Of a DNA stretch of 36,799 nt, positions 30,052-36,799 are shown one piece after another. Position numbers and translations under genes: made by a program. How positions within the stretch are numbered: the stretch's first letter is position 1; every line of letters begins with the position of its first letter. The notes under the pieces were generated by a model. That model was given only the letters and a program-made list of their open reading frames with translations. It was not told where the DNA came from and ran no database searches. This DNA comes from Armatimonadota bacterium (GTDB lineage: Bacteria > Armatimonadota > Fimbriimonadia > Fimbriimonadales > Fimbriimonadaceae): assembly GCA_025360125.1 (NCBI GenBank), contig JANYCU010000020.1, forward strand, positions 1-36,799, in the 5' to 3' direction.

Positions 30052-30057
30052 TTGACT

Positions 30058-30675
30058 ATGGTTCCCTTACTCTTGCTGAGCGCATCTCTTCGATTTCAAG
30101 ATTCAAAAGTTGAATTTGATACAAAGCAACTTGAGAATTTGGCAAAATTCACCAAAGAGGCCCAACGCCTCGCGAAAGAGGAATATCCCAAAACGGCCGA
30201 TGTCCTTGGAATTCCCCGTTCGTCGCTCCCGAACGCCAAGGTGATTATCGATTTCAATGCGACGGGCGTTGCGGCGACAAGTGGCACAACGATTCGAGTA
30301 GCAGCCAAGTACGCTTCCGCCCATCCTGATGATACGGGACTCGTTGTTCATGAGCTTTGCCACGTTGCTCAACAATATCCAAAATACGACCCGGTTTGGC
30401 TCGTCGAAGGGATTGCTGATTATGTTCGATGGTTCGCGTTTGAGCCTCTCGATAAGCGACCAAAGATAACCAAAGCAAAAGCCAACGCTCGAGCCAGTTA
30501 CCGAACCACCGGAGCGTTTTTGGACTGGACTCTTCGAACTTATGACAAAAACATCGTCAAAGAAATGAATAAGGCTTTGGTTGACTCAACTTATACCGAA
30601 GACCTTTGGAAAACGCTGACGAAACATACGCTCGATGAATTGAACGAAGAGTGGAAAGCCAGCTTGCCTGAATAG
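30058..30675 (+). CDS. basic secretory protein-like metallopeptidase
   Basis: 205 aa from ATG 30058 (a TTG lies two codons upstream). It starts with a short hydrophobic signal, MVPLLLLSAS. The zinc motif HELCH (98-102) is followed by WLVEGIADYVRW with Glu117, the HExxH...E arrangement of gluzincin-like 'plant basic secretory protein' peptidases (BSP family), whose bacterial members are poorly studied. The N-terminal and C-terminal helical parts fit the family length. It ends 6 bases before the radical SAM gene and could be co-transcribed with it. Confidence 0.8.
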   Translation: MVPLLLLSASLRFQDSKVEFDTKQLENLAKFTKEAQRLAKEEYPKTADVLGIPRSSLPNAKVIIDFNATGVAATSGTTIRVAAKYASAHPDDTGLVVHELCHVAQQYPKYDPVWLVEGIADYVRWFAFEPLDKRPKITKAKANARASYRTTGAFLDWTLRTYDKNIVKEMNKALVDSTYTEDLWKTLTKHTLDELNEEWKASLPE

Positions 30676-30681
30676 GAATTC

Positions 30682-32202
30682 ATGATAGCTCCTCGACCCT
30701 ATACGATTGAGGAATATACGCGCAGTGTATGCCCTCATTGCATGGCAAAGGGCGGAGTGCGATCCGACGACGACAACGTGTTTGTCGACGCTATGCTCGT
30801 CGCTCATTCCGGTTCAATCTGGATGCGCCGTTGGTGCCCAGGGCATGGCGAAACCGAATCACTTTACGAGGAAGATGCTGAGATTTGGCGGTCACGAATT
30901 GGTTGGCAGACTCCGACTCTCGCCGTAACGCCGGATCGGACGGATAACTTCGCGGGATTCCCGGATGGCTACCGAGAAGGGTTACCCGCCAGTCATGGCC
31001 AACACTCATGCATTTTGCTGCTCAATTTGACCGAGCATTGCAACTACAAGTGTCCGACCTGCTATGCGACTGCTTTAGAACCCGGAACCCCTGCTCCTCA
31101 ATCGGAAAAGCCTTCACTTCCCGAGCTGTTGCATACGGTTGATACGATGATTGAACGAGAAGGTGGGAAGATCAGCGTTGTCATGCTCAGCGGTGGCGAG
31201 CCGACCCTTCGTCGAGATTTAGAAGCATTGATTGAGGAGTTGGTTCGAAGGCCCGTCACTCGGGTCTTGCTGAACACGAATGGGCGGCGGATTCTGAAGG
31301 ATAAAGCCTTTCAGAAATTCTTGCATCAGCACCGAGGCAAGGTGGAAGTTTATTTGCAATTTGACGGCCTCAAGGATTCCACCTATGAACATCTGCGGGG
31401 CGCTCCGTTGGCACAAGAGAAGCTCGACACGCTGGCCATTTTGAATCAGCTCAAAGTTTTTGTGACGTTGGTTGCCACGCTGAAAAAGGGGGTCAATGAG
31501 GATGAAATCGACGATTTGCTTCAGCTTGGCCTCGCTACTCCCTATTGCTCGGGACTTGCCTTGCAGCCTGTCTTTGGGTCGGGTCGCAATAGCGGAATCG
31601 ACCCAATGAGTCGGGTCACTCCGACTGGAATTATTCGCCGGACCAAGAAGCCGGATGACTTTATTCCCCTTCCCTGCTCGCATAAGGATTGCTGTGATAT
31701 CGCCTATTTCATCCAAGACGACAAGGGCGATTGGAATTCACTTGTCTCGTTAATTGGACGGGATGAGTTGAAGAAATGGATTCATTTGGCAAGCAATTCA
31801 ATTTCCTTCGAAAACGTCCATGAATCACTGAAGGAGATGATCAAGGATGGGACATTGCAGCGAATTTTGAGTGAACAGCAGCGCGCTTCGTCCTTGCAGG
31901 TTGCAGGCGACCTCTTCAAAATGTGCGACTGCATTCCGGGGCTGACGGATTTGATGGGGGGAATATGGAAGGCATTTGGTGGTGAAGATCGCCTGCTCGA
32001 AACCATGGCGATGAAGACATTTCGGGTTACGGTCAAGATGTTTATGGATGCTCATACGTTTCATGAGGCCCGGATTCGACAATGCTGCGTTCACGTCGGG
32101 ACATTTGAAGAAGATCCTCGACGATATTCATTTTGTTGGAGGTGGTTGTTTGAGGACGCTCAAGACTTTCCCGCCCGCAAATCAACCCTGAAGATGGTAT
32201 GA
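30682..32202 (+). CDS. radical SAM enzyme of tetraether-synthase (Tes/MJ0619) type
   Basis: A 506-residue protein. Its N-terminal metal knuckle has C17PHC20 and C52PGH55G. The radical SAM cluster motif is C120NYKC124PTC127Y, with SGGEPT at 170-175. Several C-terminal cysteines occur, including CDC and QCCVHVG...FCW. The N-terminal CPxC...CPxHG followed by a CNxxCPxCY cluster is the layout of archaeal Tes (MJ0619 relatives), which joins lipid tails carbon-to-carbon to make membrane-spanning tetraethers; bacterial relatives are suspected in bacterial membrane-spanning lipids. Substrate here is inferred. The ATG has AGGA upstream, and the gene overlaps the next by ATGA. Confidence 0.85.
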   Translation: MIAPRPYTIEEYTRSVCPHCMAKGGVRSDDDNVFVDAMLVAHSGSIWMRRWCPGHGETESLYEEDAEIWRSRIGWQTPTLAVTPDRTDNFAGFPDGYREGLPASHGQHSCILLLNLTEHCNYKCPTCYATALEPGTPAPQSEKPSLPELLHTVDTMIEREGGKISVVMLSGGEPTLRRDLEALIEELVRRPVTRVLLNTNGRRILKDKAFQKFLHQHRGKVEVYLQFDGLKDSTYEHLRGAPLAQEKLDTLAILNQLKVFVTLVATLKKGVNEDEIDDLLQLGLATPYCSGLALQPVFGSGRNSGIDPMSRVTPTGIIRRTKKPDDFIPLPCSHKDCCDIAYFIQDDKGDWNSLVSLIGRDELKKWIHLASNSISFENVHESLKEMIKDGTLQRILSEQQRASSLQVAGDLFKMCDCIPGLTDLMGGIWKAFGGEDRLLETMAMKTFRVTVKMFMDAHTFHEARIRQCCVHVGTFEEDPRRYSFCWRWLFEDAQDFPARKSTLKMV

Positions 32203-32897
32203 ATTCGGTCGTATTAGGTTCACTATTTAACGCGATTGGTTATGCGGTTGGAGCCTGGCTTTATTGGTTTGAGGCGAAACGTCGGAAGCTTGCGACACCG
32301 GGAATATCTCGAATCGTTATCATTGGGGCGATTGCAGGAGTTCTTTTGGCAAGGGTCGTTGAGAGATTAGCGGAGGGCAGCAACTTCGGATCCTTGCTTG
32401 ATCCATCTAGCGGTGGGCGCACCATTTTGGGAGGTGTTATTGGCGGTTGGATTGCGGTTGAGATCGCGAAGCGACGAATGGGAATTCGAGCATCAACTGG
32501 TCCGATGTGGGCGGTTGCTTTGCCTGCCGGAGAGTTCCTTGGCCGAATAGGATGTTGGTTTAATGGCTGCTGCTTCGGACGAGTTTGTACGCTGCCTTGG
32601 GCGGTTCGACAGCACGGAGATTTGCGACACCCGACCCAGATGTACTTGGCGGCGAGCGCGGCGGTTATCTTTGGAATTGTCTGGTGGGCTCGGGATCGAA
32701 CTCGCGTCTTTCCGCTCTATCTCCTGCTTTGGTCATCGAGTCGATTTGTCATTGAATACTTTCGGGAGTCAGCCAAGCCAGGGGGGAGCATTAGCATTGC
32801 TCAATGGGCATGTTTAGGGGTGTTTGCGTTGGGAATCACCTTGTACGTCAAACCAGTTTCGGATAATCGGGTCGAAGTTATAGAGGGTCCAAAATGA
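32199..32897 (+). CDS. Lgt-like membrane protein (prolipoprotein diacylglyceryl transferase paralogue)
   Basis: A 232-residue polytopic protein with about six TM segments and the Lgt signatures GRIGCWFNGCCFG (115-127), RHPTQMY (143-149) and RFVIEYFRE (182-190). The region that reads HGG in true Lgt is GRTILGGVIGG here (73-83), so the catalytic-type His is missing, and GRIGNFxNxE is altered with two Cys (C124, C125). It is therefore unlikely to be the housekeeping Lgt. It starts on the radical SAM stop (ATGA overlap) and its own stop overlaps the next start. A role with a phosphatidylglycerol-type lipid is an inference. Confidence 0.8.
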   Translation: MNSVVLGSLFNAIGYAVGAWLYWFEAKRRKLATPGISRIVIIGAIAGVLLARVVERLAEGSNFGSLLDPSSGGRTILGGVIGGWIAVEIAKRRMGIRASTGPMWAVALPAGEFLGRIGCWFNGCCFGRVCTLPWAVRQHGDLRHPTQMYLAASAAVIFGIVWWARDRTRVFPLYLLLWSSSRFVIEYFRESAKPGGSISIAQWACLGVFALGITLYVKPVSDNRVEVIEGPK

Positions 32898-33193
32898 GTT
32901 CGTCGGAAATACCAGGTCATCTGCCTGATGTTGTTTGTGAAAAGTGTGGGAGGTCGATGCCAGCCCGTTCAGCTTGGTGTCCTTATTGCGGAAACGGAAA
33001 GGTACTGGCCCCTAAATCAAAACTTTGGCTATGGATCCTCATTTGCTTTTTCTTGATTCCTCTCGCGTCGTGCGGAGGATGCGTTGCATTTGATAGTGGT
33101 ACTGGCGTTACCATTTTCCTTTCAATAACGGGAATTTCTTTCATTGTGGGAATTGTTCTTATCGTCAGAAATGGGCCGTACGGAGAGCAATAG
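32894..33193 (+). CDS. zinc-ribbon, two-TM small membrane protein 1
   Basis: A 99-residue protein with an N-terminal zinc ribbon (VCEKCGRSM...WCPYCG), then TM1 (about 44-58) that ends in PLASCGGC. A short loop follows and then TM2 (about 70-91). The Cys-rich LASCGGC after TM1 matches a lipobox pattern although it is internal. It overlaps the Lgt-like gene by ATGA, so translation is coupled. The zinc ribbon would face the cytoplasm if the hydrophobic part is anchored as a hairpin. No known family; two paralogues follow. Confidence 0.75.
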   Translation: MSSSEIPGHLPDVVCEKCGRSMPARSAWCPYCGNGKVLAPKSKLWLWILICFFLIPLASCGGCVAFDSGTGVTIFLSITGISFIVGIVLIVRNGPYGEQ

Positions 33194-33240
33194 CGTCTGA
33201 GATCGACGAAAAGGTTTAAACTGAGTTAGGGGGAATTTAA

Positions 33241-33549
33241 ATGAACGATCTACAGCCGAGAGCTCAATTTCCATGTCCGAAATGCGGAAATCTCACTCAA
33301 GTTGGGTCTGAGACCTGCCCAACTTGTCGTCATGATTTTCGGCAATACGCTCAGACGGGTGGTGCCACAGGCAAGTATCCGTTCTCGTTTATTTGGTTTG
33401 CGGCATTATTTTTCATCGTGCCGCTTGGAGCATGCGGCGGATGCATTGTCGATTTTCGGATTGCTTCGTTCTCGGCGGTAACGATGTTGGTCTCGGCGGT
33501 GGCTGGACTTTGCTTATTGTTTTATAACGGTATCAAGGGTCGCCAATGA
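33241..33549 (+). CDS. zinc-ribbon, two-TM small membrane protein 2
   Basis: A 102-residue protein with a zinc ribbon FPCPKCGNLTQ...TCPTCRHDF, then TM1 ending PLGACGGCIVD and TM2 (about 77-96). The ACGGC motif at the end of TM1 repeats that of protein 1. Unlike its neighbours it has its own Shine-Dalgarno sequence (GGGGGAA, about 8 bases upstream) and a 47-base gap, so it may get extra translation or a separate start. It overlaps the next gene by ATGA. Confidence 0.75.
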   Translation: MNDLQPRAQFPCPKCGNLTQVGSETCPTCRHDFRQYAQTGGATGKYPFSFIWFAALFFIVPLGACGGCIVDFRIASFSAVTMLVSAVAGLCLLFYNGIKGRQ

Positions 33550-33833
33550 GTTCAGATTCGGTTGAGTTTAAGTGTCCTTACTGTGGACAGATGGTTTCCG
33601 CTCAGACTTTGTGGTGCTCAGAGTGCGGGACAAAGATTCAACCGTCACCTGGAAAATATCCCATTTCGACCGCTTGGATTGTTGTGGTTATGTTGATTCT
33701 GCCGTTTGCCATTTCCAGTGGATGCGCGGTCGAAAACGGCAAGTATTTCGGCGACTTTCTTGCCCTTGCTATAGTTGGATTCATCGCAGTTTTTTGGATG
33801 ATTGCTCATAACTTAAAGGCGGGTCGAAAATGA
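33546..33833 (+). CDS. zinc-ribbon, two-TM small membrane protein 3
   Basis: A 95-residue protein with a zinc ribbon FKCPYCGQMVS...WCSECGTKI, then TM1 (about 42-59) ending ISSGCAVENG and TM2 (about 70-90). It keeps the same architecture as proteins 1 and 2, but the Cys motif after TM1 is reduced to SGC. It shares GKYP and TAWIVV-like wording with protein 2. It overlaps its neighbours by ATGA on both sides. Confidence 0.75.
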   Translation: MSSDSVEFKCPYCGQMVSAQTLWCSECGTKIQPSPGKYPISTAWIVVVMLILPFAISSGCAVENGKYFGDFLALAIVGFIAVFWMIAHNLKAGRK

Positions 33834-34129
33834 GCGAAGAAGCAGTCAAGCCAGAGCCGACAGAGAATAAATTGGGGCGACTTGCCTTTGCGTATTGCAA
33901 GATCGCAACCTTCTCATTGTTGGCAGGTCGATACACGTTGCCGCTGGCCGCTTTTCTGTCCGCGATGTTCTTCTTGGTAAGTTATTCGAAGGGGAAAAAG
34001 GATACGAAATGCTACTTGCGGTACCCATTGCTGGCAGCGACGTTTTGGATCATTGTTCTGGTAGTTTGGGTGTTGATTCAGGTCTTTCCCGACAATGTTC
34101 CGCCGTGGATAAAGTTCTTACATCATTAA
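33830..34129 (+). CDS. small two-TM membrane protein without zinc ribbon
   Basis: A 99-residue protein with an N-terminal acidic stretch, TM helix about 36-53 and TM helix about 68-86, and only two Cys (AYCK and TKCYL). It is coupled to the preceding gene by ATGA and probably ends the operon. No T-run terminator is seen in the following 150 bases, which hold nothing that I can name. Unknown family; the context suggests it is a component of the same membrane assembly. Confidence 0.7.
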   Translation: MSEEAVKPEPTENKLGRLAFAYCKIATFSLLAGRYTLPLAAFLSAMFFLVSYSKGKKDTKCYLRYPLLAATFWIIVLVVWVLIQVFPDNVPPWIKFLHH

Positions 34130-34284: not shown

Positions 34285-35409
34285 ATGGAATCTGAACTTA
34301 ATCCAATGCATAATACTGACTCTGAAGAGCCAAATTTGACCATCGTAGACGGTGAGTCGTCTGTCGATATCCCAGCCGAGTCATCGATTGTTCCCAATGC
34401 GTTTGAGACGGTTTTAGCCCAATATGATGAGGCCAAAGCGCCTAAGTATGTTGAACCAGAGGCACCAGCTTATAAGAATCGGGCATTCATTGCGGCGATT
34501 TGCATTGTTGGCGGAATTATTGCTGGCCGATTGACAACCCAGCCTAAGATTGAAACGAGGGTGGTCACGAAGGATGCACCGATAACTGCGACGCAAGGTA
34601 CTCCGGTTGCGTCTGTCGCTAAAGTCGACAACGCTTTTCGAGATTTGGACGACCTCAAAGATTTTGACCCTTGGCAGCCGATGAACGGTGGTTTTCCACT
34701 TCCGCCAAAGGCAACTCAGGCGAATATTGTCTCTCGCGGCGGATCTTCAAATTTTGAGCCCGCTCCTCCTTCACTGCAAGGCAATATTACTCCGATGAAT
34801 CCCAATGATGTCGTTGGGCCATTGCCACAAGTTGGTGGACCGGGGATTAGCTTGCCCGCGAACCCAGAGCCAGGCGGAAAAACATCGACGAAAACATCGA
34901 CAGAAAATGGTAAAGTCGTCGTAGTAGATGCTACTAATAAGGCCGATTTGGGCCGTGAAAAATATATTTCGATGAACGTAAGCGGATCCGATCCAATTCA
35001 AGGACAGTCGAGTTTAACGAAACTGGCGAGTTCCCTTGGAGGTAGTGCGCGGACGTTTTCTCACATGCTCGAAGATGGGACTGCAGAGAGTCAGGGCGTC
35101 TTGATGATCATTCCAGCTTCAAAATTTGAAGCCGCAAGATCTAAAATCGAGGCTCTTGGTGGGGCAACGATTGATGCGAATGTTGATGGCATTGCATCGG
35201 GCGAGCAGACTCGAATTCAGAGCATTTTTACGGCGCGATTGACCCGATTGCGCGAAAAGCAGAAGGACTTGTTGGTCGACTTTTTGGAAGACGCTCAGCC
35301 AGTTAAGCAGGTCAAGGAAGCGATTGATCTTGAATCGCGAGCGGTGGCGGCGACTCGGTTGCCGGGCGGGCTTGCGGGCAAGGTCGTTATTCGCGTAATG
35401 CTGAAATAG
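34285..35409 (+). CDS. single-pass membrane protein with DUF4349-like C-terminal domain
   Basis: A 374-residue protein with an acidic cytoplasmic N-terminus, one TM helix (about 69-86), a long Pro/Gly/Asn/Ser-rich linker (about 110-225), and a C-terminal globular domain. The domain reads LMIIPASKFEAARSKIEALGGATIDANVDG followed by a long helix with RLREKQKDLL. This pattern resembles DUF4349, which is found in bacterial membrane proteins of unknown function. It is preceded by 155 bases without a gene. A TACCGT box lies just before the ATG, but no clear promoter is seen. Confidence 0.7.
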   Translation: MESELNPMHNTDSEEPNLTIVDGESSVDIPAESSIVPNAFETVLAQYDEAKAPKYVEPEAPAYKNRAFIAAICIVGGIIAGRLTTQPKIETRVVTKDAPITATQGTPVASVAKVDNAFRDLDDLKDFDPWQPMNGGFPLPPKATQANIVSRGGSSNFEPAPPSLQGNITPMNPNDVVGPLPQVGGPGISLPANPEPGGKTSTKTSTENGKVVVVDATNKADLGREKYISMNVSGSDPIQGQSSLTKLASSLGGSARTFSHMLEDGTAESQGVLMIIPASKFEAARSKIEALGGATIDANVDGIASGEQTRIQSIFTARLTRLREKQKDLLVDFLEDAQPVKQVKEAIDLESRAVAATRLPGGLAGKVVIRVMLK

Positions 35410-35623: not shown

Positions 35624-35935
35624 ATGGTGTCTCGCAGAAGTTATAGTCGTGAGTTTAAGTTGGGCATTTGCCAAGGGATTCAATCTGGTGTTATGTCCAA
35701 ATCCCAGGTATGCCGTGAGCATGGTTTGTCTCCGGGGATGCTGGATCGTTGGGTAGACCAGTTCAGAGTATTGGGTTCTGAGGCCTTCCCGAATTCGGGT
35801 GGGGTTTCGGCTCCGAAAGACTTCGACCGTATGAAGGAGTTGGAGGCTTTGGTTGGCCGCTTGACTTTAGAGAACGAGTTTTTGAAGGCTGCGGTAAAAA
35901 AAGGGCTCGAACTCCGGGAGAAAGAGTCATTGTGA
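35624..35935 (+). CDS. IS3-family transposase OrfA
   Basis: A 103-residue protein with a helix-turn-helix (FKLGICQGIQSGVMSKSQVCREHGLSPGMLDRW) and a C-terminal leucine-zipper-like coiled coil (MKELEALVGRLTLENEFLKAAV). It binds the IS ends. The slippery run of seven A (35896-35902) reads A_AAA_AAA in this frame. A -1 shift there continues without a stop into OrfB, giving the OrfAB transposase. Confidence 0.93.
   Translation: MVSRRSYSREFKLGICQGIQSGVMSKSQVCREHGLSPGMLDRWVDQFRVLGSEAFPNSGGVSAPKDFDRMKELEALVGRLTLENEFLKAAVKKGLELREKESL
35896..35902 (+). promoter_or_regulatory. -1 programmed frameshift slippery heptamer
   Basis: Seven A residues sit in X_XXY_YYZ phase with OrfA. The -1 frame from here to the OrfB start at 35932 has no stop codon (I read it codon by codon). 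This is standard for the IS3 family. Confidence 0.8.
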
Positions 35936-36771
35936 TTCATTCTCTTCGCTCGGAGTTTTCCCGTCTTTCGGTCCACCGGATGGCTCAACTTCTTGGAGTT
36001 CCTCGTTCACTGGTGTATCGTCCAGTTGCGGTTGTATCTCCAAGTCCGGTTCTCATTCGAGTGCAAGAAATTGTGCTGAGGTTCATGGGTTATGGCTACC
36101 GGCGGGTTCGTTTAGCTTTGGCCAGCCAGGGACATTCGGTGAGTGAGCACCACGTTCGCAAGTTAATGCGTGAATACGGGCTTTCGGCACGTCGCCCGAG
36201 AAGTAAGGGCTGTACGAGACCCAGCGCCAAAGACAAGCGTTTCGGGAACTTGGTGAAAGGCGTCGTTCCGACCGGTGTGAACGAGATTTGGGTCGCGGAC
36301 ACAACGCAGTTTGCCGCCGGTGGAATGCGTTTGTACCTGGCTGCAGTAATGGACCTGCATTCACGTATGGTGGTGGGATGGAGCCTTTCCAGACGAAACG
36401 ACGAGGAACTGGTGAAATCCTGCTTGAAGAGAGCATTGGAATCTAGAAGACCTGGTCTAGGCTGGATCCACCACTCAGACCAAGGCTCGACGTATTTGGC
36501 TCAAGGATATGCGACTCTCGTGAAGCAGTTCGGTGGAAGACAAAGCCTCTCGGCGCCAGCAACGCCAAGAGACAATGCCCATATGGAAAGCTTCTTCAGG
36601 ACCCTCAAACTCGAAGAAGTCGACCGTAACCGTTACGAATCGTTCTTGGAAGCAAAGGCTTCGCTGGAAACTTATATCCATGAAATCTACAACCAAGAAA
36701 GAATGCACTCGTCACTCGGCTACATCAGCCCACAACAATTCGAGTCGCGTCTAAACGGAGAGACGCGATGA
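35932..36771 (+). CDS. IS3-family transposase OrfB (DDE domain)
   Basis: A 279-residue protein (GTG start at 35932, overlapping OrfA) with the rve/DDE integrase fold. The catalytic residues lie in WVADTTQF (first Asp), IHHSDQGSTY (second Asp) and DNAHMESFFRTLKLEE (Glu); the last two are 35 residues apart, as in IS3. HTH_21-type text (GYGYRRVRLALASQGHSVSEHHVRKLMREYGL) precedes it. It is normally made as an OrfAB fusion. The copy looks intact and could be active. Confidence 0.95.
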   Translation: MIHSLRSEFSRLSVHRMAQLLGVPRSLVYRPVAVVSPSPVLIRVQEIVLRFMGYGYRRVRLALASQGHSVSEHHVRKLMREYGLSARRPRSKGCTRPSAKDKRFGNLVKGVVPTGVNEIWVADTTQFAAGGMRLYLAAVMDLHSRMVVGWSLSRRNDEELVKSCLKRALESRRPGLGWIHHSDQGSTYLAQGYATLVKQFGGRQSLSAPATPRDNAHMESFFRTLKLEEVDRNRYESFLEAKASLETYIHEIYNQERMHSSLGYISPQQFESRLNGETR

Positions 36772-36799
36772 AGGTGTCCGAAATTTTCACCGCATTTCA

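Follow-up and report, generated by a model that had tools for sequence, protein, structure and literature searches.

A radical SAM enzyme of the Tes/TrsS group is linked to a dedicated Lgt paralogue and to small membrane proteins bearing a lipobox-like cysteine in Armatimonadota

We considered a DNA stretch of 36,799 nucleotides (nt) from a soil bacterium of the phylum Armatimonadota (contig JANYCU010000020.1; hereafter, the window), and in particular the operon at 30682-34129, which encodes a radical S-adenosylmethionine (SAM) enzyme, a paralogue of the prolipoprotein diacylglyceryl transferase Lgt, and four small membrane proteins. Comparison of sequences demonstrates linkage of a Tes/TrsS-type radical SAM enzyme to a dedicated Lgt paralogue, usually together with small membrane proteins that carry a lipobox-like Cys. 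The explanation we favour, to which we assign somewhat less than an even chance, is that the operon is a lipid-handling module, where the Lgt paralogue would diacylglycerylate the small proteins, and the radical SAM enzyme would modify lipid tails.

Results

Linkage of the radical SAM and Lgt genes in Armatimonadota

Relatives of the radical SAM protein (E < 1e-40) were found in 47 out of 291 Armatimonadota genomes, and the Lgt paralogue, defined by a score of at least 216 bits against the profile of module Lgts (other Lgts, at most 168 bits), in 40 of 291, all of them among these 47. Seven genomes with the radical SAM gene have no full paralogue: three loci (G032, G010, G118) stop at a contig edge, G132 has a broken copy, in G256 and G165 the radical SAM protein falls outside the module clade, and G160 is the sole true exception. 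For the 45 module-type genomes the co-occurrence of the two genes yields Fisher p ~5e-44, a value not to be taken literally, as the genomes are related and their kinship was not corrected for. The last gene of the operon, ORF6 (open reading frame 6; hereafter TM4), was observed in 37 of the 291 genomes, together with the radical SAM gene in 33 of them; in the remaining four (G044, G051, G113, G122) the TM4 cluster is situated near a contig edge, in one case beside a radical SAM fragment. The linkage of all three genes recurs in dozens of genomes, beyond chance, and the conserved neighbourhood that the initial annotation had proposed to look for is indeed present.

In the tree of radical SAM proteins, clades c1 (comprising the window protein), c2 and c3 are each set apart by a strongly supported branch, and together they split from other Tes/TrsS-like proteins with support 99/94. 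The gene order is radical SAM, Lgt, ribbon proteins, TM4 in c1; Lgt with a ribbon protein nearby, radical SAM, TM4 in c2; and radical SAM, PEMT/ICMT methyltransferase, DUF4395, Lgt and a ribbon-less small protein in c3. One family of c1 (f30) has PEMT and DUF4395 genes upstream of the radical SAM gene, TM4 being missing or localized on another contig. AAA and DUF4276 genes between the radical SAM and Lgt genes in one locus (L087) look like an insertion.

In the window, the operon is a real set of six plus-strand ORFs, mostly linked by ATGA, as had been noted initially: adjacent ORFs overlap by 4 nt (ATGA) at four of five junctions, and a 47-nt gap separates the third and fourth ORFs.

The Lgt paralogue

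The second gene (32199..32897, plus strand, 232 amino acids (aa)) matches the Pfam family LGT (PF01790; 2.9e-35, 122.2 bits vs the gathering score 24.9), and the top fold match of its predicted model is 5azb (TMq 0.66, E only 1e-3). It contains GRIGCWFNGCCFG and RHPTQMY, and scores 61.3 bits with the equivalog model lgt TIGR00544, below the cut-off of 118.9. In the Lgt tree, 37 module Lgts and 20 housekeeping Lgts are parted by a branch with support 98/97 (the rows of G362 and G710 are long-branched and their placement is uncertain), and the earlier designation of the gene as an Lgt paralogue stands. One further Lgt in the genome, located on another contig, is the housekeeping copy; it contains GRIGCLLNGCCHG.

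The paralogue retains the Lgt signature motif G115RIGCWFNGCCFG127 (32541..32579, plus strand) with R116, equivalent to R143 of Escherichia coli Lgt (numbering of PMC4728403), as well as R182, E186 and R189 (32742..32765, plus strand; 37/37, 36/37 and 36/37 module Lgts, respectively), equivalent to R239, E243 and R246. These four E. coli residues are sensitive to mutation (PMC4728403), and their equivalents are conserved in module and housekeeping Lgts alike. As the mutation-sensitive Arg/Glu/Arg residues are conserved, the paralogue likely is an active diacylglycerol transferase. The module group is marked by K91 (34/37) and G101 (37/37).

The initial annotation had noted the absence of the HGG histidine. 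Indeed, H103 of the HGGL motif is absent, the paralogue reading TILGG; however, since SFGGF stands at this place in the genome's housekeeping copy, the absence does not discriminate between the two, and we rejected it as a sign of an altered Lgt.

Small membrane proteins as candidate acceptors

ORF3 (32894..33193, 99 aa), ORF4 (33241..33549, 102 aa) and ORF5 (33546..33833, 95 aa), all on the plus strand, each have one CxxC...CxxC zinc ribbon and two hydrophobic segments, and TM4 (33830..34129, plus strand, 99 aa) has no ribbon, in agreement with the initial description. The profile of ribbon proteins features, beyond the ribbon Cys residues, one near-invariant Cys located where the first helix ends, within P-x-x-x-x-G-x-C, and we saw in this profile no conserved core peptide in addition to the ribbon and the Cys motif. 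At that Cys the window proteins read LASC-GGC (ORF3; LASC at 33062-33073), LGAC-GGC (ORF4; LGAC at 33424-33435) and SSGC (ORF5; 33714-33725). Compared to the lipobox, in which [LVI][ASTVI][GAS]C follows a hydrophobic stretch, LASC fits, LGAC nearly fits, and SSGC deviates.

Every helix-end Cys was counted, without preference for [GAS]. On this count, 40 of 60 module proteins have [GAS]C at the end of a membrane helix, vs 16 of 122 controls, which are the other small membrane ORFs, unannotated, of the loci examined; the respective p-values are too small, because the module proteins are partly paralogues. The Cys was preceded by G, A or S in 55 cases out of 90 vs 34% expected. The lipobox idea arose from c1, and the other groups were examined afterwards: the ribbon-less proteins of c3 have FGAC at the helix end, and outside the phylum we observed FGAC, MGAC and FGSC (G558), SSGC (G362) and AGGC (G710). 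As most of the small proteins carry a lipobox-like Cys, we consider them candidate acceptors of the Lgt paralogue, rather than the scaffold suggested initially. Among the 22 genomes scanned for them, ribbon proteins with high scores were found nowhere but at the module locus or next to TM4. In the largest expansion seen (L067:10500-13206), seven ribbon-type small membrane ORFs are localized between Lgt and TM4.

The preference for a small residue before the Cys also bears on another possibility: the acceptor of the Lgt paralogue would be not a protein but a lipid or glycerol compound, and the paralogue would help to build an unusual polar lipid with PEMT/ICMT-type methylation, the Cys of the small proteins having a metal or redox role. 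Such a preference would be needless for a metal ligand, and the His of the peptide-binding HGGL motif, whose absence would agree with a non-protein acceptor, is also missing from the genome's own housekeeping Lgt. PEMT/ICMT genes do belong to the module in c3, in family f30 and in other phyla; on balance, we consider this variant improbable.

The alignment of the TM4 family shows conserved FxxCK (C23, K24), C61, P66 and W73. A search of PDB with this alignment gave no convincing match. The similarity of TM4 to PEN-2 (Pfam E 0.014, under the gathering score) was taken as chance, and the idea that TM4 is a shortened DUF4395, based on the common FC[KR] motif and on the apparent mutual replacement of the two, was not accepted (hhalign probability 3%).

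The radical SAM enzyme

The first gene (ORF1; 30682..32202, plus strand, 506 aa) has the layout noted initially, CPxC...CPxHG plus CNxxCPxCY, in the form of CPHC...CPGHG and CNYKCPTCY, and matches Pfam Radical_SAM (1.3e-19) and, at the N-terminus, Zn_ribbon_HMPTM (2.4e-12). The closest solved structure in the PDB sequence search is GDGT-MAS (1.9e-29). The predicted model of ORF1 (mean predicted local distance difference test score 72; the C-terminal 50 residues score <50 and are unreliable) matches GDGT-MAS (7tom) at full length (E 2.3e-25, TM 0.65, 502 columns), and the next fold family, MoaA, matches only the core part (5e-10). Thus, by sequence and predicted fold, ORF1 is a full-length GDGT-MAS/Tes homologue with the architecture of a lipid-tail enzyme.

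The rubredoxin-like iron site C17-x2-C20...C52-x2-H55 (30730..30846, plus strand) and the radical SAM cluster motif C120-x3-C124-x2-C127 (31039..31062, plus strand) are invariant in 25 relatives; C17, C20, C52 and H55 correspond to C9, C12, C33 and H36 of GDGT-MAS (ligands: PMC9433317). In the alignment to Methanocaldococcus jannaschii GDGT-MAS, C468, C469 and C485 (32083..32136, plus strand) are probable ligands of the C-terminal auxiliary cluster. The ligands C73, C77 and C80 of the N-terminal [4Fe-4S] cluster are lost in c1, and Lys452 and Val472 stand at the equivalents of Met439 and Tyr459 (numbering of PMC9433317). In c3, the N-terminal cluster motif is kept, and two C-terminal Cys are lost.

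ORF1 scores 164.4 bits with the NCBIfam Tes model (NF045702; equivalog cut-off 450) and 214.6 bits with the TrsS model (NF045646; cut-off 490), and TrsS is the top-scoring named model for every module radical SAM protein scanned. As the score is under the Tes cut-off, TrsS is preferred, and the N-terminal cluster Cys residues are lost, ORF1 is not Tes as defined by NCBIfam, and by these models it is assignable to neither Tes nor TrsS. Of the initial claim of a Tes-like enzyme, the fold and full-length homology stood, and Tes membership did not, given the cofactor ligands and a score of 164 vs 450 bits: Tes is among the top models, but below cut-off, and TrsS, itself below cut-off and of unknown function, scores higher.

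If the module served bulk synthesis of membrane-spanning lipids, the radical SAM enzyme would join the tails of free phospholipids into compounds like iso-diabolic acid or branched glycerol dialkyl glycerol tetraethers (brGDGTs), and the Lgt paralogue and the small proteins would handle or present lipids. GDGT-MAS is the nearest structure and fold, ORF1 retains the radical SAM motif and the Cys residues that probably bind the C-terminal cluster, and bacterial Tes homologues have been proposed to make brGDGTs (PMC8941075). However, ORF1 fails the Tes model, and it has lost both the ligands of the N-terminal cluster and the equivalents of Met439 and Tyr459; the latter loss is tempered by the fact that M439A and Y459F/L variants of GDGT-MAS stay active, although both residues are fully conserved in archaeal homologues (PMC9433317). 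Furthermore, true bacterial Tes genes have no Lgt in the stretches examined (see below), and the conserved lipobox-like Cys would be left unexplained. We regard this variant as rather unlikely, and the tail-to-tail coupling suggested in the initial annotation, with membrane-spanning lipid synthesis a possible outcome, is one option among several.

Alternatively, the radical SAM enzyme could be a peptide maturase modifying the small proteins, with the Lgt paralogue lipidating the matured product. The small proteins occur in several copies, evolve fast and have their genes next to that of the enzyme, in which they resemble the substrates of radical SAM enzymes that modify peptides. Against this, no SPASM-type maturase is near the top of the matches, where the TrsS and Tes models lead, the fold is that of a lipid enzyme, and apart from the ribbon and the Cys motif no core peptide is conserved. 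We give this alternative a low probability.

Occurrence in other phyla

The radical SAM and Lgt genes are linked in at least five genomes beyond Armatimonadota, and the gene sets observed there differ in order and content: radical SAM and Lgt (G305); radical SAM and TM4 (G353, G354); small protein, radical SAM, Lgt, ICMT (G362); small proteins, radical SAM, PEMT, DUF4395, Lgt (G558); and Lgt, small ORF, radical SAM (G581, G710). In G558 (L195:3790-6737) four ribbon-bearing small membrane proteins are encoded upstream of radical SAM-PEMT-DUF4395-Lgt, three of them with FGAC, MGAC or FGSC near the C-terminus. The ICMT-like methyltransferase of G362 (L171:7534-8520) has a Cys-rich C-terminal extension resembling the end of DUF4395, possibly being a fusion.

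Many other genomes have TrsS-like radical SAM genes without Lgt nearby; in other phyla some of them form tandem pairs of adjacent genes (L198, L199, L200, L202, L203, L205, L208, L211), and in L172 such a pair is situated downstream of acyl-carrier and dehydrogenase genes. No Lgt adjoins true Tes genes (548 and 593 bits) in the stretches examined around them in other phyla.

Flanking genes

A gene of a BSP-family (PF04450) peptidase-like protein (30052-30675) ends 6 nt upstream of the radical SAM gene; we place it outside the module, because in L059 its relative flanks the operon at the opposite end. Downstream, 34285-35409 encodes a protein that is membrane-anchored and matches DUF4349 weakly; a relative, 49% identical, is likewise encoded downstream in L059. 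An IS3-like transposase pair (35624-36771; 103 aa and 279 aa, from ORF translations) lies at the contig end, which closes the window at 36799, just past the pair.

Discussion

In the favoured explanation, the Lgt paralogue would transfer diacylglycerol from phosphatidylglycerol onto the Cys of the small proteins, which, as its acceptors, would become membrane-embedded lipoproteins. The radical SAM enzyme would abstract hydrogen from an alkyl tail, belonging either to the donor lipid or to the lipid already bound to the protein, and would then modify or couple that tail, whereas TM4, or PEMT/ICMT and DUF4395 where TM4 is missing, may assist or complete the modification. We hold this to be the most likely scheme: its lipidation half is suggested by the motif, the linkage and the conserved catalytic residues, and the tail half by the fold.

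Several observations weigh against it. The Cys is present in clade c2 proteins, with [GAS] before it in only three of nine, which is a poor fit, and several ribbon proteins of the operons have no helix-end Cys; the partial paralogy of the 60 module proteins and the unannotated controls weaken the counts themselves. The HGGL motif, by which E. coli Lgt binds the peptide, is not retained in the paralogue. A common lipid pool would be needed for a cytosolic radical SAM enzyme to work together with an Lgt whose activity is at the outer face. Finally, both steps are inferred from comparison.

A more specific variant is a pathway for membrane-embedded lipoproteins whose Cys-bound diacylglycerol has tails that a Tes-family enzyme would modify, or would join to a lipid from the opposite leaflet. 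We consider it quite unlikely; if true, it would mean protein-anchored membrane-spanning lipids in bacteria, made by a previously undescribed pathway.

As far as the open literature shows, the families are known, and the gene combination and the acceptor set are new: we found there no description of Lgt with a radical SAM enzyme and zinc ribbon or with tetraethers, the sole match being a review of archaeal cell envelopes. Surveys count bacterial relatives of tetraether synthase as possible makers of brGDGTs, the lipids used in palaeoclimate work, their function being untested (PMC8941075, PMC11868695). One branch of the wider Tes-like group is accompanied by an enzyme that lipidates proteins and by likely protein acceptors, and therefore Tes-like matches need not mean membrane-spanning lipids. 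The module is a concrete test case both for a radical SAM group without an assigned function and for a second, specialised branch of Lgt. The prediction is testable, because the culturable Fimbriimonas ginsengisoli Gsoil 348 carries the radical SAM gene, the Lgt paralogue and TM4 together.

Comparison with known systems

With GDGT-MAS/Tes (MJ0619; 7tol, 7tom) ORF1 shares the fold, CxxC...CxxH, CX3CX2C and the FMDA...CC...FC C-terminal region; it differs in falling short of the Tes cut-off, in having no C73/C77/C80, in the replacement of Met439 and Tyr459, and in the linkage to an Lgt paralogue. The TrsS radical SAM (seleno)protein is the best named model, but ORF1 is far below its cut-off; TrsS is listed in PMC13188914 solely as a selenoprotein family, no role being given. 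Mss (membrane-spanning lipid synthase) with Ger is a candidate bacterial tail-coupling route, and Mss matches are reported from Armatimonadota metagenome-assembled genomes (Sahonero-Canavesi 2022, cited by PMC11868695). ORF1 matches the Tes/TrsS group. Finally, the Lgt paralogue shares with the E. coli and housekeeping Lgts (PF01790, TIGR00544, 5azb) the fold and the equivalents of R143, R239, E243 and R246; unlike them, it forms its own branch, scores under the TIGR00544 cut-off, has near-invariant K91 and G101, and is a second copy beside a normal Lgt.

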